A stretch of 35,113 nucleotides of DNA from a virus. The stretch is taken from IMG/VR virus record IMGVR_UViG_3300005589_000069, positions 1-35,113 of that record. One strand, 5' to 3'. The notes under the pieces are model-generated. The model searched no databases. It was not told the DNA's origin and saw nothing but the letters and a program-made list of their open reading frames with translations. Every line of letters starts with the position of its first letter. The stretch's first letter is position 1. Shown piece after piece: positions 5,940 through 35,113 of the stretch. The position numbers were made by a program, and so were the translations under genes.

Positions 5940-7480
5940 TGGATTTATACATAGATAACGTAAGGGCAGACGTATTAAGAACTTCTTTTGCCATAAATTG
6001 GAGATGGTATGATATTGAGAATCCATTAAAAAGATATGCTGTTGCGTCTACTAATATGACACTGCCGTTTTCTGCAATAAATAATAATATATTTTCATTT
6101 ACTAATATCGCTGGATCAGATTTAACTCCTGTTTGGGACGAAGTGGAGGCAAAAATATATTTCGGCAACTATTTAGCTTTGGCTGGATTATTAAAATTAA
6201 ACAACATAGACATAACTAAAAAGCAATTTAATACAAGTATAAAGGGAGATAATAATGTGATTAATGATCTTAATGCAAATACTCCTAGAGATATAATGTC
6301 TGCCGATATGACGGCTAACATCCCTGTAGCGTGGAATACATTGTCATTAGCAATAGATAGTCTTAACTCTGGCAGTTATGGTTGGTTATTGCCTGTAATT
6401 GACGATGGAACAAATTTATTTGCACAGTCGGGAGCAACATTGGATTATGAAATTATTAGTGTGAATGATTTGAGAAGAAATGAATTATGGATTAGTTTAG
6501 ATAATTTTATAACTAGAGCCTTTTCATCTGCGTCAATTGATTTAAAAATATTTGAATCCGGTTCTATAGTGAATTATTCGGCAAGCTCAATAAAAACAAT
6601 TTGGGCTAATGAATATATGCCAGCATATCATATAGGATTAAAAGCGTCTACTCTAACTCCTAGAATTACAAGAACAGATACTGAGAGTAGATATTTTAAT
6701 TCAGGACAGGGAGTTATTACTAATGCTAATATAATTGTATGTGGTGGATTAGATACGTTTGATGTTTTTAAAGAAGTTTGTAGGAAATTTAACATGGGTA
6801 TATATATAGATCAAATAGATTCTAAAATAATAATGTTCGATTTAAATACAACTAACACGCCTACTATAGATTGGTCAGACAAATTAATATCACATAAAAA
6901 AACACCATTAATTAAGAATTACGCCAAAACAAATTATATTAAATTTAAACCTACAGATAATTTAGACGATACATTTGGTCAGATTACATTATTAAATAAC
7001 CCAGCAATTAAATATATTAAAGACACAAAAACATTAGGGACTATTAATGTGGCTATCCCCGGTGTGTATGATTATTATGGAACAACGGGGATATTATTAG
7101 AATCTAACATATTTAAATTAGATTATTTTTCATCTAAAGGTGCATACAATTCATTAGTTTTATTAAATAAATCTAATCTTTCAGCTATTAATTTTAATGT
7201 CACCGTCTATTCAATATATGGGAATACAGCAGCATCTAAACAACTTTATAAAATGAGTTTTTTAGATAGTAGTTCATATTTTAATTGGATCGAAGATAAG
7301 GCTTTAGATATTAGTGAATCGTATGACACCGAAATAGAATTAAATTTAAGTGATTTGGTAGATTTAAGACCTTGGAATTTAGTTAAGGTAAAACAAATAG
7401 GAGAAGAATTCTATATTAATGAAATAAAAAACTTAAACTTTAATAGACCAGCAAAGGTTAAACTTATAAAATTGGCATAA
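5939..7480 (+). CDS. Probable tail-tip/baseplate hub protein, 513 aa
   Basis: A 513-residue beta-rich protein. Near the N-terminus it has the pattern STNMTLPFSAINNNIFSF (about residues 38-55). A similar LPF..NN.IF stretch occurs in tail-tip proteins that accompany the tape measure in Bacteroidota siphophages. Such proteins form the hub under the tail tube. Both ends overlap the neighbouring genes by one base, so the set is coupled. The hub assignment rests on position plus this motif. Confidence 0.6.
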   Translation: MDLYIDNVRADVLRTSFAINWRWYDIENPLKRYAVASTNMTLPFSAINNNIFSFTNIAGSDLTPVWDEVEAKIYFGNYLALAGLLKLNNIDITKKQFNTSIKGDNNVINDLNANTPRDIMSADMTANIPVAWNTLSLAIDSLNSGSYGWLLPVIDDGTNLFAQSGATLDYEIISVNDLRRNELWISLDNFITRAFSSASIDLKIFESGSIVNYSASSIKTIWANEYMPAYHIGLKASTLTPRITRTDTESRYFNSGQGVITNANIIVCGGLDTFDVFKEVCRKFNMGIYIDQIDSKIIMFDLNTTNTPTIDWSDKLISHKKTPLIKNYAKTNYIKFKPTDNLDDTFGQITLLNNPAIKYIKDTKTLGTINVAIPGVYDYYGTTGILLESNIFKLDYFSSKGAYNSLVLLNKSNLSAINFNVTVYSIYGNTAASKQLYKMSFLDSSSYFNWIEDKALDISESYDTEIELNLSDLVDLRPWNLVKVKQIGEEFYINEIKNLNFNRPAKVKLIKLA

Positions 7481-28419: not shown

Positions 28420-28599
28420 ATGGCAAAGCGCAAGATAAAACTTTGTAAAGGATTCGATCATAACAGATGTAAAACTTGCAAACGTAAAGATAAAAAATCT
28501 GAACCATTAGTTCAATCATTAGCACCTGATGGAACTTGTATTTATTTTGTTCAGGATGCAAAAGTAATTAATAGACCAACTAAATTCTATTATGATTGA
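28420..28599 (+). CDS. Small Cys-rich protein, 59 aa
   Basis: A strongly basic start (MAKRKIKLC) and Cys residues at 9, 17, 20 and 40 could form a zinc site. The ATG follows the preceding TAG directly, and its stop overlaps the methyltransferase start by 8 bases. It may modulate the methyltransferase it is coupled with, but this is speculation. Confidence 0.55.
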   Translation: MAKRKIKLCKGFDHNRCKTCKRKDKKSEPLVQSLAPDGTCIYFVQDAKVINRPTKFYYD

Positions 28600-29266
28600 A
28601 ATAACTAACGAAGATAATATGGAGCTTATGGCTCGTTATGCTAATAATTATTTTGAATTAGCTATAGTTGATCCTCCTTATGGAATAGGAATAACTGGGA
28701 CAGTAGGTGGGGATAAACCTTTTGGAAGTAAAAAAACACAAGTGGGGGGGGGAAAAGTTGCAAAATGCAAGATTTATAATTCATTTGATGATACTAAATC
28801 TCCAGATATAAAATATTTTAATGAACTAATTCGAATATCTAAAAATCAAATTATATTTGGAGCTAATCATTTTATATCTAAAATTCCTTATGATAGTTCT
28901 TGTTGGATTGTATGGGATAAAGATAATTCAGGTAATTTTGCGGATTGTGAACTTGCGTGGACATCTTTTAAAACATCAGTAAGGAAATTTAAATGGCGAT
29001 GGAATGGTATGCTACAGCAAAACATGAAAAATAAAGAAGATAGGATACATCCTACCCAAAAACCAGTTAAACTTTATGAATGGTTATTAATGAACTATGC
29101 TAAACAAGGAGATAAAATATTAGATACGCATTTAGGTTCTGGAAGTATTGCGATCGCTTGCCACAATTTAGGCTTTGATTTAACAGCTTGTGAATTAGAC
29201 AAAGAGTATTACGATGCTGCAATTAAACGATTAAATTTACATAAAAGTCAAAAAAGATTGTTTTAA
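28592..29266 (+). CDS. DNA adenine-N6 methyltransferase (beta class), 224 aa
   Basis: Motif IV DPPY is at residues 27-30 and comes before the AdoMet-binding motif I (DTHLGSGS, about 178-185), the beta-class order. HPTQKP at 153-158 is the other conserved segment. Such phage methyltransferases protect DNA from host restriction or alter regulation. No partner restriction gene is adjacent. Codons 51-54 lie in a G9 tract (28744-28752) that could alter frame, with possible phase variation. Confidence 0.85.
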   Translation: MIEITNEDNMELMARYANNYFELAIVDPPYGIGITGTVGGDKPFGSKKTQVGGGKVAKCKIYNSFDDTKSPDIKYFNELIRISKNQIIFGANHFISKIPYDSSCWIVWDKDNSGNFADCELAWTSFKTSVRKFKWRWNGMLQQNMKNKEDRIHPTQKPVKLYEWLLMNYAKQGDKILDTHLGSGSIAIACHNLGFDLTACELDKEYYDAAIKRLNLHKSQKRLF

Positions 29267-31091: not shown

Positions 31092-31125
31092 TGAAAAATG
31101 AACGCTAGTTATGAAAAATGAACGC
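31092..31125 (+). repeat. Tandem 20-base duplication at a start codon
   Basis: TGAAAAATGAACGC at 31092-31105 and again at 31112-31125. The two copies give GTG-AAA-AAT-GAA-CGC-TAG and ATG-AAA-AAT-GAA-CGC, so a duplicated gene start precedes the ORF at 31111. It looks like a slipped-replication duplication. Confidence 0.6.
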
Positions 31126-31209
31126 CCTATATATATGGCACGTGAACTCGATAATGCAGATGATAGATGTCACGTTTTTACGGGTATAAACGTGACAAAT
31201 ATAAGATGA
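31111..31209 (+). CDS. Small ORF or broken gene, 32 aa
   Basis: The frame starting at 31111 reads MKNERPIYMARELDNADDR and ends at TGA 31207-31209. The same frame continues open beyond the TGA to 31359. A perfect 10-bp hairpin lies within it (31168-31197). It is either a short gene directly after a promoter or a gene with a premature stop. Confidence 0.4.
   Translation: MKNERPIYMARELDNADDRCHVFTGINVTNIR
31168..31197 (+). repeat. Perfect 10-bp hairpin
   Basis: TGTCACGTTT (31168-31177) pairs perfectly with AAACGTGACA (31188-31197) around TTACGGGTAT. No T-run follows, so it is not an intrinsic terminator. It may be an operator or origin-type palindrome. Confidence 0.5.
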
Positions 31210-31233: not shown

Positions 31234-31359
31234 ATGTTCAAGTCAATAGGTTTTGAGAATTTTAATTTTTCACCAGAGAAAATGTGGGACGGTAAAATTA
31301 AATATTATATTATTGCGGCGCAGATAGCCGTACTGAAATTGATTGAAATTAGGAAATAA
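31234..31359 (+). CDS. Small ORF, 41 aa, in frame with the preceding one
   Basis: The frame encodes MFKSIGFENFNFSPEKMWDG and continues to a TAA at 31357-31359. It is in the same frame as the ORF at 31111, separated by one TGA. It may be a separate gene, the C-terminal part of a broken gene, or not translated. Confidence 0.35.
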   Translation: MFKSIGFENFNFSPEKMWDGKIKYYIIAAQIAVLKLIEIRK

Positions 31360-31382
31360 ATTTTTAACTTAAAATATAAACC

Positions 31383-31676
31383 ATGACTAAATTAGAGTTA
31401 TTAATTATCAAATGGCAGAAAGAGTTGGATTTTATAGAATCTAATTTACTTAAATGCATAGATGAAAATAATAATGATGATGAACGATTTTATTCTGGTA
31501 AGAAAATCCGACTCGTATTATGTATAGAAGAACTTAAAAATTTACCGAATGAACTCAAAGGTGTTAGCAATAACGAGCAAAATAAAAATATTTACGATCG
31601 TGTTTTATGCACTTATGACAAAGTATGTACTAAAGATATAACAGAATGTATTACGTGTAAGTATAGTAATGAGTAA
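31383..31676 (+). CDS. Hypothetical protein, 97 aa
   Basis: A Lys/Glu/Asn-rich protein with four Cys near the end (VLCTYDKVCTKDITECITC), possibly zinc-binding. The 3' part of the gene (31553-31575) contributes arms to the inverted-repeat array, so either the array unit was inserted into or fused with this gene, or the arms overlap it by chance. The family is unknown. Confidence 0.45.
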   Translation: MTKLELLIIKWQKELDFIESNLLKCIDENNNDDERFYSGKKIRLVLCIEELKNLPNELKGVSNNEQNKNIYDRVLCTYDKVCTKDITECITCKYSNE

Positions 31677-31687
31677 ATTGTATTTTG

Positions 31688-31705
31688 CGCCCGCTAGATG
31701 CGGCG
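31688..31705 (+). repeat. Bulged hairpin after gene 31383-31676
   Basis: CGCCCGC (about 31689-31695) pairs with GCGGCG (31700-31705) if one C is left bulged. It lies within the first array interval (31563-31716). Single bulged bases recur in array stems. Confidence 0.4.
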
Positions 31706-31806
31706 TTATTGCTAACGGCTGCGATAAACGTAGTTTATAAATTGAGTAGAGATTTATTTTTAAAAGCGAAGCGTAGGGAATTTTTTATTAATTTAAATTA
31801 TATAAA

Positions 31807-32445
31807 ATGAAACAGTATCACAAAATTCAAACGGTATATTTCAGAGACCCTGAAAATAACCATAAAACATTACTTGAAGGAACTTGGGCTAAGCCAGAGT
31901 TTGAACTATTAAAAGACATTGATTGGATTTGCACTGAAAAGATTGACGGCACAAATATTCGTATTATGTGGGATGGTGAAAATGTACGATTTGGAGGAAA
32001 AACAGATAATGCACAAATACCAACTATCTTAATAGAGGCATTGCAAGATACATTTACAAATGAAATAATGAAAGAGTGTTTTTCTGACTCTGATAATGTT
32101 TGCTTGTATGGTGAGGGATATGGTAAAAAGATACAAAAAGGAGGAAATTATTTATCAGATAGGGCAGATTTTATTCTGTTTGATGTAAAAGTTGGTGATT
32201 GGTGGTTAACAAGAGAAGCAAATGAAGATATTGCAACCAAACTTAATATTGGAGTAGTTCCTATTATTGGAACTTGGAAATTAGAAGAAGCAATTGAATA
32301 TGTTAAGAATGGTTTTAAATCTACTATTGCCGAAAATAAAGAATATTTAGCTGAAGGATTAATAATGAAGCCAGTAACTGAACTGTTTAATAGAAAAGGC
32401 GAACGAGTAATTACTAAAATTAAACACAAAGATTTTTCTAAGTAA
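31807..32445 (+). CDS. RNA ligase (Rnl2-like nucleotidyltransferase), 212 aa
   Basis: Adenylation motif I is KIDGTN with K45 as the predicted AMP-binding lysine. The following motifs are in order: GEGYG (about residues 99-103), FDVKVGDWW (motif III), AEGLIMKP (motif IV), and ITKIKHKDF near the C-terminus (motif V). It would join RNA or nicked RNA/DNA ends, for instance to repair tRNA cut by host defences. The gene lies in the second interval of the inverted-repeat array, flanked by its own 16-base inverted repeat. Confidence 0.85.
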   Translation: MKQYHKIQTVYFRDPENNHKTLLEGTWAKPEFELLKDIDWICTEKIDGTNIRIMWDGENVRFGGKTDNAQIPTILIEALQDTFTNEIMKECFSDSDNVCLYGEGYGKKIQKGGNYLSDRADFILFDVKVGDWWLTREANEDIATKLNIGVVPIIGTWKLEEAIEYVKNGFKSTIAENKEYLAEGLIMKPVTELFNRKGERVITKIKHKDFSK

Positions 32446-32459
32446 TTTCGAAGAAATTA
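32443..32459 (+). repeat. Short hairpin at RNA ligase stop
   Basis: TAATTTC (32443-32449) pairs with GAAATTA (32453-32459) around GAA. It begins at the stop codon and may protect the mRNA end. Confidence 0.4.
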
Positions 32460-32632
32460 TAAAGTGCGGTGGGGCTTTTTAAAATAAATATTGAGAACAA
32501 TTTTTAAACTCAAAAGAAATTGATTAAGATACTGTCTAAATTACGTTTATCGGTTGTTATGTTCCGTTATCGTAGCGGACAGATAGAACCTTTTGAGATT
32601 ATCGCAGCCGTTAGGCATAAAAATTTTAGGAA
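32446..32632 (+). other. Intergenic array DNA with bulged hairpin
   Basis: The section contains TACGTTTATCG (32542-32552), the complement of 31722-31732, and GTTCCG/CGGAC (about 32561-32579) with one bulged base, around the motif ATCGTAGCG. No ORF is visible. Confidence 0.4.
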
Positions 32633-32878
32633 ATGGAAAACTTAAAAGACAAAGTTTACAACTTTAAAACAAAGAACAAAGAAGGTTTCACTAACAAGGA
32701 AATGGAAACTTTATTAAAAGATTATCCAAACATACACATGGATAAGTTTAACAACGCAATGATGGGGAATACCTGTATGATAATAGATGAAGAAATAATA
32801 AACTACCATTGTGATGTTTTATCTGCATTGCGCTGTGGGTTAGAAAATAGAAACCTTCGTTATTATGAATGGGATTAG
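32633..32878 (+). CDS. Array-borne hypothetical protein, 81 aa
   Basis: An Asn/Met-rich soluble protein with an amphipathic N-terminus. The start follows the GTTAGGCATAAAAATT arm closely, and a perfectly complementary arm (32935-32950) lies after the gene. The gene therefore occupies an interval bounded by its own inverted repeat. It has no recognised family. Confidence 0.5.
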   Translation: MENLKDKVYNFKTKNKEGFTNKEMETLLKDYPNIHMDKFNNAMMGNTCMIIDEEIINYHCDVLSALRCGLENRNLRYYEWD

Positions 32879-32906
32879 CTTATTTGTGTGTAAGCAAAGA
32901 AGAAGG

Positions 32907-32920
32907 GCAGCGTTAGCTGC
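32907..32920 (+). repeat. Palindrome GCAGC-GTTA-GCTGC
   Basis: A perfect 5-bp hairpin whose loop is GTTA, the array core motif. It lies just after the gene at 32633-32878 and before the array arm at 32935-32950. Confidence 0.4.
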
Positions 32921-32958
32921 TTAGGATGGGCGGGAATTTTTATGCCTAACACCTTTGA

Positions 32959-33012
32959 GTGTATGCGTTGCAAATCGTGAGCGATAGCGGAGATAATGGA
33001 AGCATAACACAC
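32959..33012 (+). repeat. Bulged hairpin after the array arm
   Basis: GTGTATGC (about 32959-32966) pairs with GCATAACAC (about 33002-33010) with one bulged A. The loop carries GTGAGCGATAGCGGAG, similar to the loop motifs of the other array hairpins. Confidence 0.45.
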
Positions 33013-33073
33013 GGCAAGTAGTGGATGGGAATTTTAGAACATATATTAATATAAACACTTAAATTAATTAGAA

Positions 33074-33283
33074 ATGAATAAATTATTTGAAGTATCACCA
33101 CCGACAATGCCAAATTTTGTTAGGTTTAAAAAAGAAGCTGGATTGAGACAAGATGGATTTAAGGTTGATGAAGGGTTTCCGATAATTAACTTTACAAGAG
33201 AAGAGGCAGAAGAATACGGACAGTTAATGAAGGACACCTTTATAAAACATTGGGAGCGTAAGAAAGGCTTAAACGAGGTATAG
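33074..33283 (+). CDS. Hypothetical protein, 69 aa
   Basis: A short basic protein, mostly helical at its C-terminus (TREEAEEYGQLMKDTFIKHWERK). The 5' leader is A-rich. It is preceded by the bulged hairpin at 32959-33012 and followed by the loop element at 33302-33434. I do not recognise it. Confidence 0.5.
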   Translation: MNKLFEVSPPTMPNFVRFKKEAGLRQDGFKVDEGFPIINFTREEAEEYGQLMKDTFIKHWERKKGLNEV

Positions 33284-33370
33284 CGCATAATTTATATTTG
33301 GTGTTGTATGGTGGGATGGATTTTTGAGCGAGGGCATCTGTTGCGCTAGATAAACTAACTAAAATAGAAT

Positions 33371-33472
33371 ATGATGAATTACAGTAAAAACTATTTTGAA
33401 ACTATAAATACATTTAGCGCAATAGCATACAACAGTTTGGCGTGTATGCGTAGTTGTAACGATTTTGCCTAA
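33371..33472 (+). CDS. Possible tiny ORF, 33 aa
   Basis: An ATG-started frame (MMNYSKNYFETINTFSAIAY) runs across two array arms. It is short and repeats constrain the sequence, so it may be chance. No support beyond an open frame is seen. Confidence 0.2.
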   Translation: MMNYSKNYFETINTFSAIAYNSLACMRSCNDFA

Positions 33473-33597
33473 TTAATTATAAGTGCCAGACCTTATATTC
33501 AACGATTATAAGGCTACGGACTTATACTGATTATTTTATAGGGCAAAAAGAAAGTTACAAACTAGCATCGATTGATCATACAATTACGCATGACACG
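33441..33597 (+). ncRNA. Large bulged hairpin, possible structured RNA
   Basis: CGTGTATGCGTA (33441-33452) pairs with TACGCATGACACG (33585-33597) with one bulged G. TAGTTGTAAC (33451-33460) pairs with GTTACAAACTA (33554-33564) with one bulged A. TTTTGCC (33463-33469) pairs with GGCAAAA (33542-33548). CCTTATA/TATAAGG (33491-33497/33507-33513) is an apical hairpin. It is non-coding. Confidence 0.45.
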
Positions 33598-33658
33598 ATA
33601 GTTACACATTGTGTACCGTCGAGTAAGAAAAAATTAACAATGAAAAACACATAAAATT

Positions 33659-34012
33659 ATGAGTAAACCAAAAGTTATTTGTATTTGCGGGTCAACGCGA
33701 TTCGCTGATCTCCATGCTATAAAGCGTTGGGAATTTGAAAAAACAGCAGAAAACATATGTCTTATGATTAATTACCTTCCAGAATGGTATGCTAAACAAG
33801 AATTTGGCGATGGTAAGAACGATCATTTCGGGGAGGCTTGCGGATTAGAAGCATCATTGGATAAATTACACTTCGCAAAGATTGATCTATGTGACGAAGT
33901 TTATGTAATTAATTACGAGGGTTATATTGGAGAAAGTACAAGAAATGAGATTAATTATGCTAAAGGCAAAGGTATTCCGATTATTTATATGGAGGAAACT
34001 CTAAACGAATAA
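33659..34012 (+). CDS. Nucleoside 2-deoxyribosyltransferase-like protein, 117 aa
   Basis: The N-terminus VICICGSTRF (residues 6-15) is a Rossmann-type nucleotide-binding loop. The C-terminal segment ending in DEVYVIN, then GYIGESTRNEINYAKGKG (about residues 88-105), with E92/E97 as candidate catalytic acids, is typical of the deoxyribosyltransferase/DUF4406-like family. It may process nucleotides or their derivatives. The flanks AACAGTTTGGCG (33431-33442) and CGCCAAACTGTT (34028-34039) pair around it. Confidence 0.7.
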   Translation: MSKPKVICICGSTRFADLHAIKRWEFEKTAENICLMINYLPEWYAKQEFGDGKNDHFGEACGLEASLDKLHFAKIDLCDEVYVINYEGYIGESTRNEINYAKGKGIPIIYMEETLNE

Positions 34013-34034
34013 TTTTATGCAATCGAACGCCAAA

Positions 34035-34107
34035 CTGTTACACATAATGAGTGTAACAGGAGCGTAGCGGGTTACACGTCCCCTCGACGGGGCATTATGT
34101 GTAACAG
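34035..34107 (+). repeat. Array hairpin with 15-bp perfect arms
   Basis: CTGTTACACATAATG (34035-34049) pairs with CATTATGTGTAACAG (34093-34107). The loop contains a second copy GTGTAACAG (34051-34059), the motif GGAGCGTAGCGGG, and a CCCC-TCGAC-GGGG stem. GTTACACATTGTG at 33601 is a further related copy upstream. Confidence 0.65.
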
Positions 34108-34179
34108 CCAAGAATAAGGGAAGGTTTTAAGATGCCTTCGATTACAGAAGTTAATTATTAAACTAAAATAAATATTATC

Positions 34180-34443
34180 ATGAATACAGGATGGATTTAC
34201 AAACAGTTCAAATTTAATATGAGCACAAAAAAGATGTCAAACATAATGTACGCACTTATCATGACAAAAGCTTCTATGACAGGATCGCATGGTATAGGGA
34301 TTTATGAATATGATAGAAGTATAAATTGCAGACATTATGTTGATATAATGATACACATTAATCCATGCGAGACGGATAATTTTGAAAAAATAGCTCATGT
34401 TAAATTATCTGATCCTATAAAAGTACATTTAAATAGTGAATAA
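34180..34443 (+). CDS. Hypothetical protein, 87 aa
   Basis: A Met-rich protein (several Met near residues 14-33) with a hydrophobic segment (MYALIMTKASM) and a strand-rich C-terminus. A TAAACTAAAA leader is upstream (34159-34168). The gene lies between perfect arms TAACAGCCAAGAATA and TATTCTTGGCTGTTA. No function is recognised. Confidence 0.5.
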   Translation: MNTGWIYKQFKFNMSTKKMSNIMYALIMTKASMTGSHGIGIYEYDRSINCRHYVDIMIHINPCETDNFEKIAHVKLSDPIKVHLNSE

Positions 34444-34463
34444 TATTTATCCTTAATAATGGT

Positions 34464-34539
34464 ATCTTAAAACTTGCCCTTTATTCATAGTTATACATTG
34501 TGACTTTAGGATGAAGTTTATTAGAACACAAGTTTTAAG
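34464..34539 (+). repeat. Hairpin CTTAAAACTTG/CAAGTTTTAAG
   Basis: CTTAAAACTTG (34466-34476) pairs with CAAGTTTTAAG (34529-34539). The first arm also pairs with GTTTTAAGAT (34124-34133) upstream of the gene, so a gene-spanning fold and a local fold compete. The loop contains TAGTTATACATTGTG, a near copy of 33599-33613. Confidence 0.5.
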
Positions 34540-34560
34540 GTGTGAAGGACTATTCTTGGC

Positions 34561-34642
34561 TGTTATAGCATAATGGGTTTTGGTTTTTGCGCTAAGGAGC
34601 GAGGGCATTTAGGGAAGGACAGCGAGTCATTATGCTATAACA
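34561..34642 (+). repeat. Array hairpin with 15-bp perfect arms
   Basis: TGTTATAGCATAATG (34561-34575) pairs with CATTATGCTATAACA (34628-34642). The loop reads GGTTTTTGCGCTAAGGAGCG and continues GAGGGCATTTAGGG. Its right end overlaps the left arm of the next interval in AACA. Confidence 0.65.
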
Positions 34643-34734
34643 CTGAGAAAAATATGGGATGGCTTTTTAAGGGCAAATCATAGAAGTTAAATAAAAGAAT
34701 TAAACATTAATATTAATATAAAACAAAAATTATT

Positions 34735-34899
34735 ATGCAAACATTTAAAAAAATTCACAGAGTATTTGCTTTTATCATGTTTATATTATCGATAATTGCT
34801 TGGGTGTACTTTATTTATGAGAGTATGTTATTGGAAATGTGGATAGCAAATATTTTTACATGGATTGGTGCTATTCTAATTTATCTTTCTGACGAATAA
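34735..34899 (+). CDS. Two-span membrane protein, 54 aa
   Basis: Two hydrophobic segments (FAFIMFILSIIAWVYFIY and IANIFTWIGAILIYL) with a Lys/His-rich start. It sits between perfect 18-bp arms (34639-34656 and 35016-35033). Its envelope function is unknown. A small membrane protein in a cassette array could be a toxin, a defence effector or an exclusion factor, but nothing specific supports any of these. Confidence 0.55.
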   Translation: MQTFKKIHRVFAFIMFILSIIAWVYFIYESMLLEMWIANIFTWIGAILIYLSDE

Positions 34900-34909
34900 T
34901 TTTTGAACT

Positions 34910-34948
34910 CATAGCGAAAGCCCTTAAAAAGCTTTCCTATGATTTTTT
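34910..34948 (+). terminator. Terminator-like bulged hairpin after membrane gene
   Basis: CATAG-c-GAAAGC (34910-34921) pairs with GCTTTC-CTATG (34931-34941) with one bulged C, followed by ATTTTTT. It is the only array stem that ends in a clear T-run. The stem overlaps GCCCTTAAAAAGC (34920-34932), which also pairs with 34662-34674. Confidence 0.5.
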
Positions 34949-35030
34949 AGTTAGCATTTGCAATATTAGGAGATAAACTTATCAGATACAATATGAACAT
35001 ACAGCCGAGGGACGGCATATTTTTCTCAGT

Positions 35031-35113
35031 GTTAGCCTCAAGAATATTAGGTTTTTGCGCTTTGACGAGGAAGGGCGAGGAACGAGCTAGGAGGGGCGTA
35101 TTGTTGAGGCTAA
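35031..35113 (+). repeat. Array hairpin cut by the window end
   Basis: GTTAGCCTCAA (35031-35041) pairs with TTGAGGCTAA (35104-35113), so a C is expected as the next base. The loop reads GGTTTTTGCGC, then GACGAGGAAGGGCGAGGAACGA, again the purine-rich motif. The array continues beyond the window. Confidence 0.55.

Follow-up and report, generated by a model that had tools for sequence, protein, structure and literature searches.

A chain of inverted-repeat junctions in a tailed-phage genome as part of a probable integron-like cassette array

Integrons are reported to be rare in Bacteroidetes by surveys that search for them with IntI and attC models (PMC9024848). IntI itself is defined by an additional domain (PMC9668308). 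Integrons and CALINs have also been described from bacteriophages, among them the virulent Polaribacter phage P12002L (Qi et al. 2023, PMC9892861). The open-licence papers covered here report phage integrons, none of them with the recombinase type described below, of which an earlier description is possible. Here we analyzed a window of 35,113 nt (positions 1 to 35,113 of the virus record IMGVR_UViG_3300005589_000069) and found by sequence comparison that a block at 31553-32960 very probably belongs to a cassette array of integron-like type in the genome of a tailed phage, with a TT core as the predicted place of recombination. The features seen in the sequences that point to this reading are a chain of junctions in the window, a homologous array ending at a recombinase gene, and an attI-like site with matched cassette ends.

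The block contains four junctions, which an earlier note had taken to close on each other as a four-armed cruciform resembling a Holliday junction. The arm pairs are exactly where they had been placed, with 31563-31575 pairing perfectly with 31704-31716 over 13 bp, 31712-31727 with 32599-32614 over 16 bp and 32610-32625 with 32935-32950 over 16 bp; the outer base stem, put at 14 bp, exists and is perfect as well, and recalculation gave its length as 15 bp (31553-31567/32946-32960). The junction cores read GTTA, TAAC, GTTA and TAAC in order, as was claimed. Junctions S1 (31553-31575, ACTCAAAGGTG-TT-AGCAATAACG) and S3 (32599-32625, TTATCGCAGCCG-TT-AGGCATAAAAATT) lie on the plus strand with the core TT between their halves. 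S2 (31704-31727) and S4 (32935-32960), with which the next gene unit (ORF 33074-33283) begins on its left, lie on the minus strand, and the plus strand at S2 reads CTAACGGCTGCG, an attC-like motif. Read in the GTT direction, S1 is ACTCAAAGGT-GTTA-GCAATAACG, S2 is TTATCGCAGCC-GTTA-GCAATAACG, S3 is TTATCGCAGCC-GTTA-GGCATAAAAATT and S4 is ACTCAAAGGT-GTTA-GGCATAAAAATT. Two left and two right half-sites flank GTTA, and each of their 2×2 combinations is present, which suggests the footprint of cutting and joining at a shared core.

In addition to the RNA ligase gene and the orphan gene already noticed, the block includes the 3′-terminal part of another gene, ORF97 (97 aa, 31383-31676, plus strand), which crosses S1 and has its last third in unit A, a [TT..AA] hairpin of 152 nt (31564-31715, plus strand). 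ORF97 has no Pfam or PHROG match, and a suspected homology to ORF95 of a second virus record, G001, was not supported; an ORF of G001 crosses a TT junction as ORF97 does (L114:282-569, junction at 450). Unit B carries the RNA ligase gene (212 aa, 31807-32445, plus strand; Pfam PF09414, 1.2e-19; PHROG 548, 5.8e-28), which sits in the loop of an attC-like pair at 31713-32558 (plus strand). The left end of this pair, AAC-GGCTG-CGATAAACGTAGTTTA, and its right end, TAAATTACGTTTATCG-GTTGTT (32537-32558), were folded as joined ends, and the layout is that of the attC-like elements of the loci L128, L140, L155 and L159. Inner inverted repeats (31752-31767/32474-32489) surround the RNA ligase gene inside the outer arms, and its DNA at 32284-32361 displays 79.5% identity to Prevotella Lak phages across 78 nt. 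Unit C (32611-32949, plus strand, ends TTAGGCATAAAAATT and AATTTTTATGCCTAA) contains ORF81 (81 aa, 32633-32878), for which homology to an ORF of a third record, G002, was suspected and not supported. Relatives of ORF81 in three other viral contigs are without the flanking repeats of unit C, and so these repeats are part of the array, not of the gene.

The array does not stop at 32960, where the block had been closed; the chain reaches 35113 with at least five further arm pairs, all of its units being given on the plus strand. Unit D (33302-33434, ends GTTGTATG and CATACAAC, 9-bp arms) is followed by unit E (33431-34039, ends AACAGTTTGGCGT and ACGCCAAACTGTT) with a 117-aa ORF at 33659-34012, the 67-nt hairpin F (34038-34104, TTACACATAATG..CATTATGTGTAA, arms reaching 34035/34107), and unit G (34102-34565, ends TAACAGCCAAGAATA and TATTCTTGGCTGTTA) with an 87-aa ORF at 34180-34443 that has no relative among the viral contigs. 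The 78-nt hairpin H (34563-34640, arms reaching 34561/34642), unit I (34638-35034, 19-bp arms) with a 54-aa ORF at 34735-34899, and hairpin J (35032-35113, TTAGCCTCAA..TTGAGGCTAA), at whose AA core the contig ends, complete the chain. Arms overlap at one core all the way through 33302/33434, 33431/34039, 34035/34107, 34102/34565, 34561/34642, 34638/35034 and 35032/35113, and short [TT..AA] hairpins alternate with [AA..gene..TT] gene units; unit C and two further hairpins in G001 have an ORF in the [TT..AA] half. Inner inverted repeats (34662-34674/34920-34932) flank the 54-aa ORF of unit I. Just left of the array, TGAAAAATGAACGC occurs twice at 31092-31125 in exact copies 20 nt apart, a 19-nt hairpin lies at 31163-31202, and the DNA methyltransferase gene of the phage (PF01555) is located outside the array at 28592-29266. 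The window end at 35113 falls exactly on the TAA of a junction core, and a population carrying different cassettes may have caused the assembly to break there. Comparison of the array DNA with annotated phages and plasmids gave no useful match.

Chance as the origin of the junction chain was ruled out by dinucleotide-preserving shuffles of region 31301-35113 (400 runs) and by about 585 kb of other phage DNA. Eight junctions with both arms paired were observed in this region vs at most one per shuffle, and six chained arm pairs vs at most one. When all 32 3-nt cores were scanned, only GTT/AAC, together with the overlapping frames ACA, CAG, CTA and TAA, stood out in the window, and the background scan of the other phage DNA gave a GTT-core count of 1.

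All four stems form in a single-strand fold of the block. A purpose-built, four-armed Holliday-like cruciform that extrudes from the DNA and serves, say, replication or packaging would account for the perfect 13-16 bp stems and the outer 15-bp stem, but we consider it extremely improbable, as the arms are up to about 870 nt apart and enclose genes, the chain runs past the block, and closed blocks in G001 have either four junctions (L114:43-618) or six (L088:3895-4965). The arms are a local part of a longer chain, with no fixed number of arms to a closed block; the four-armed shape is not special, since a block closes wherever an arm type comes back further along. What stands of the proposal that units were inserted at one GTTA/TAAC core is an apparent joining at a common core, while a dedicated Holliday-type four-armed cruciform is not supported. 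Nested small transposons (MITE-like, with terminal inverted repeats) in a palindromic target would also give gene-carrying units with inverted repeats at their ends. This explanation is very unlikely, as the terminal repeats vary between units, the flanks too are inverted repeats, and relatives have a conserved recombinase with an attI-like site; no transposase was found in the window ORF list or among ten window proteins scanned. Ordinary transposons with terminal inverted repeats (TIRs) and nested MITEs were rejected on the inconstancy of the unit ends.

A relative without this exact block was not found, and the closest to an empty-site comparison is hairpin H, whose right neighbour differs between the window and the locus L088, the switch falling exactly at the AA core. 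L088, retrieved with a pattern built from hairpins H and J, is part of G001, a virus record of 43,754 nt. The G001 array is homologous to that of the window (84% identity over window 34439-34605), shares the leader of unit I (AAATATGGGATGGCTTTTTAAGGGC) and has about 17 junctions, in which TT is the strictly common core and almost always has a purine on both sides. One type of hairpin in G001, TTGGGCATAATTG, has three different right partners, one of which is the attI-like site, and the switch again occurs at AA. The same leader and hairpin as in the array were found in G002. In other phages, too, homologous pieces change neighbours precisely at the shared core: the RNA ligase loci L005 and L006 show 91% identity as far as the final C of GGGTAAC (L005:3967, L006:2274), past which they are unrelated. 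Among 60 loci with relatives of the RNA ligase gene, none has a junction chain around the gene and two share the exact TAAC border.

The loop of hairpin H is empty in the window and holds a 71-aa ORF in the L088 homologue (L088:1986-2265). The borders of this insertion lie in the loop, not at the TT core, and the loop-bordered ORF may represent a second way of gaining genes. Inner arms in L088 (TTTTTAAGGG/CCCTTAAAAA) flank several genes, similar to the inner repeats of the window, and two ORFs of G002 (L117:6050-6322 and 6382-6747) contain one unit-end repeat arm in their coding sequence, like ORF97.

The G001 array ends with its last hairpin (L114:969-1044), and a tyrosine recombinase gene starts 56 nt on; a GIY-YIG endonuclease gene (L114:1897-2289) overlaps the 3′ end of this gene. 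The window contig has no recombinase gene (PF00589 absent) and stops inside hairpin J. The G001 recombinase consists of 266 aa (PF00589, 3.1e-37), and of 79 viral loci found with relatives of it, 77, on contigs of about 4 to 465 kb, were used. Alignment of 25 recombinases revealed R132, K157, H216, R219, H242 and Y251 as invariant catalytic residues with the H-x-x-R motif, and PDB 4a8e (3.3e-31) is among the best sequence matches, which are to Xer recombinases. By sequence the protein is nearest to XerA/XerC-like proteins and then to integron integrases, with scores under every family cut-off: 156 bits vs 220 for XerA (NF040815), 139 vs 329.6 for XerD, 134 vs 335 for XerC and 140 vs 265 for the integron integrase model TIGR02249. 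When it is aligned to 2a3v, an integron integrase structure, residues 201-265 of the latter are passed over and face a stretch of just 15 residues in the phage protein, which indicates that the recombinase is without the additional domain of IntI. Bacterial relatives share at most 49% identity, being present in 61 of 198 Bacteroidota genomes at E 1e-40 and in 1 of 395 at E 1e-65, and none has a junction chain in the surrounding 3.8 kb or so. No chromosomal source was thus found, given that the bacterial relatives are distant and devoid of the chain. Isolated phages gave distant matches only (Cellulophaga phages at 39%); from the distant matches, our guess would be Bacteroidota hosts.

A strict nine-base scan for double junctions around the 77 recombinase loci gave few chains; cassette ends came to light in a test anchored at the attI-like site. 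In 65 of 70 loci the recombinase start is preceded, at a distance of about 55 nt, by this putative site, AAC with a TATnATATATA-like stretch (conserved as TAAC-TATnATATATA), and the mean information is 1.21 bits per position right of its AAC vs 0.33 left. For the sequence ending at this AAC, a reverse-complement partner within 1.5 kb upstream was found at 9 nt in 35 of 50 unique loci (control AACs, 3.3%), at 10 nt in 28 of 50 (control, 1.8%) and at 11 nt in none of the 50. The ends abutting the attI-like site vary among loci and match within a locus, as expected of cassette ends. The terminal unit beside the site has a median length of 268 nt and usually a small ORF, and an [AAC..GTT] hairpin directly precedes the terminal cassette in 19 of 34 loci vs 4.9% in the control. 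The motif TAACG[GA][CT]T (TAACGRYT), also present at window 31713 in junction S2, has 137 matches within 5 kb upstream of the recombinase vs 7 within 5 kb downstream; it has a 30-fold higher density upstream, with matches on the plus strand only. Of the attC boxes (GTTRRRY/RYYYAAC), the strict GTTRRRY form occurs in 4 of about 33 junctions counted by eye, and the TT core is kept. Among the 77 loci, 22 reach a contig end less than 1.5 kb before the recombinase and 2 do so behind it, a count that is only supportive since some of the 22 contigs begin inside the recombinase gene.

Phage integrase genes often adjoin an att site, and the left side of the attI-like site is variable, so the recombinase might be an ordinary prophage integrase and the boundary between conserved and variable DNA an attL/attR with host DNA on the variable side. 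We regard this as highly improbable, because the variable side has cassettes with matched 9-10-nt repeat ends and attC-like hairpins on one strand only, and because in G001 it is the phage's own array. The stems could alternatively act on RNA, with long-range stems bracketing transcripts to terminate, protect or process mRNAs and GTTA as a by-product. Stems that flank single genes and form in the single-strand fold would fit, as would the second inner stem pair (GTTTTTAAGGG/CCCTTAAAAAC) of some gene units; this explanation is nonetheless unlikely, for it does not account for the overlap of adjacent arms, which is exactly the core, for the switching of partners at the core or for an attI-like site beside a recombinase, and no Rfam family matches the block. 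A role of the stems at the RNA level may exist as a side function.

For the cassette array, we infer that recombination is carried out by the phage recombinase. Short genes stand in units with inverted repeats at both ends, and neighbours share the two-base core of R-TT-R junctions; an Xer-like recombinase without the IntI-specific domain would act on folded single-stranded hairpins, exchanging strands by cutting and joining at the TT core. Cassettes would enter beside the attI-like site and be gained, lost and shuffled. The four-way pairing would then be the trace of one or more units joined between half-sites of matching type, and the four-junction block could have arisen when two units together, either B plus C or, just as well, A plus B, entered a core with one arm type on both sides; insertion of B plus C offers a slightly simpler history because ORF97 crosses S1. 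The window phage would have, or have had, a recombinase gene in the region that the contig does not cover, or would borrow one. Weighed against the array are the window contig, which carries no recombinase, two integron traits that do not hold here (the IntI domain and the strict GTTRRRY box), the place of most window and G001 genes in the [AA..TT] half, and the fact that no empty-site relative of the block was found.

Should this mechanism be right, a platform for shuffling genes is carried by many environmental phages themselves (77 recombinase loci in one scan). It would explain the base-exact movement of small accessory genes such as RNA ligase between phages, and would let an origin of integron integrases from Xer-like enzymes be tested directly. 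Such a system would probably have escaped the surveys, since its recombinase scores under the IntI cut-off and the surveys rely on IntI and attC models. Chances are about even that it is a separate phage-borne integron class with a compact Xer-like recombinase, perfect hairpins and a two-base core, representing either a second origin or a surviving Xer-like stage before IntI.

Compared with TIR transposons, the array has unit ends that vary, and no transposase was seen in the window ORF list or among the ten scanned proteins. The best sequence matches of the compact 266-aa recombinase, which is without the IntI insertion, are Xer proteins (archaeal XerA, XerC/D), but it scores under the Xer cut-offs and has cassette arrays and an attI-like site as its genomic partners in place of a dif site. 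The phage integrons described before (PMC9892861) likewise place cassette arrays on phages, and a CALIN, an attC array without a recombinase gene, is what the window contig looks like; unlike the present system, whose associated recombinase is of another type, they came from searches with IntI and attC models, and IntI1 was used to test them. Phage-borne integrons are therefore already published, and what is new here is the recombinase type, the core, the perfect stems and the apparent frequency in environmental phages. As in integrons, small genes stand in tandem, mostly in one orientation, with hairpin sites between them; the core has GTT/AAC polarity, the attC-like sites fold as single-strand hairpins, and an attI-like site lies directly beside a tyrosine recombinase gene with variable cassettes abutting it, the recombinase being next to the array itself in G001 and, judged by cassette-like ends, in most of the 50 unique loci. 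Unlike in integrons, the recombinase is without the additional domain of IntI and under its cut-off, the core is R-TT-R instead of G-TTRRRY, and the stems are long and perfect. The genes of the window and G001 lie mostly in the [AA..TT] half, inside the loop of the attC equivalent, in contrast to the [TT..AA] half in ordinary integrons, and some ORFs cross a junction. The system would thus work like an integron but is not filed as one, since the IntI domain and the strict GTTRRRY box do not apply to it.
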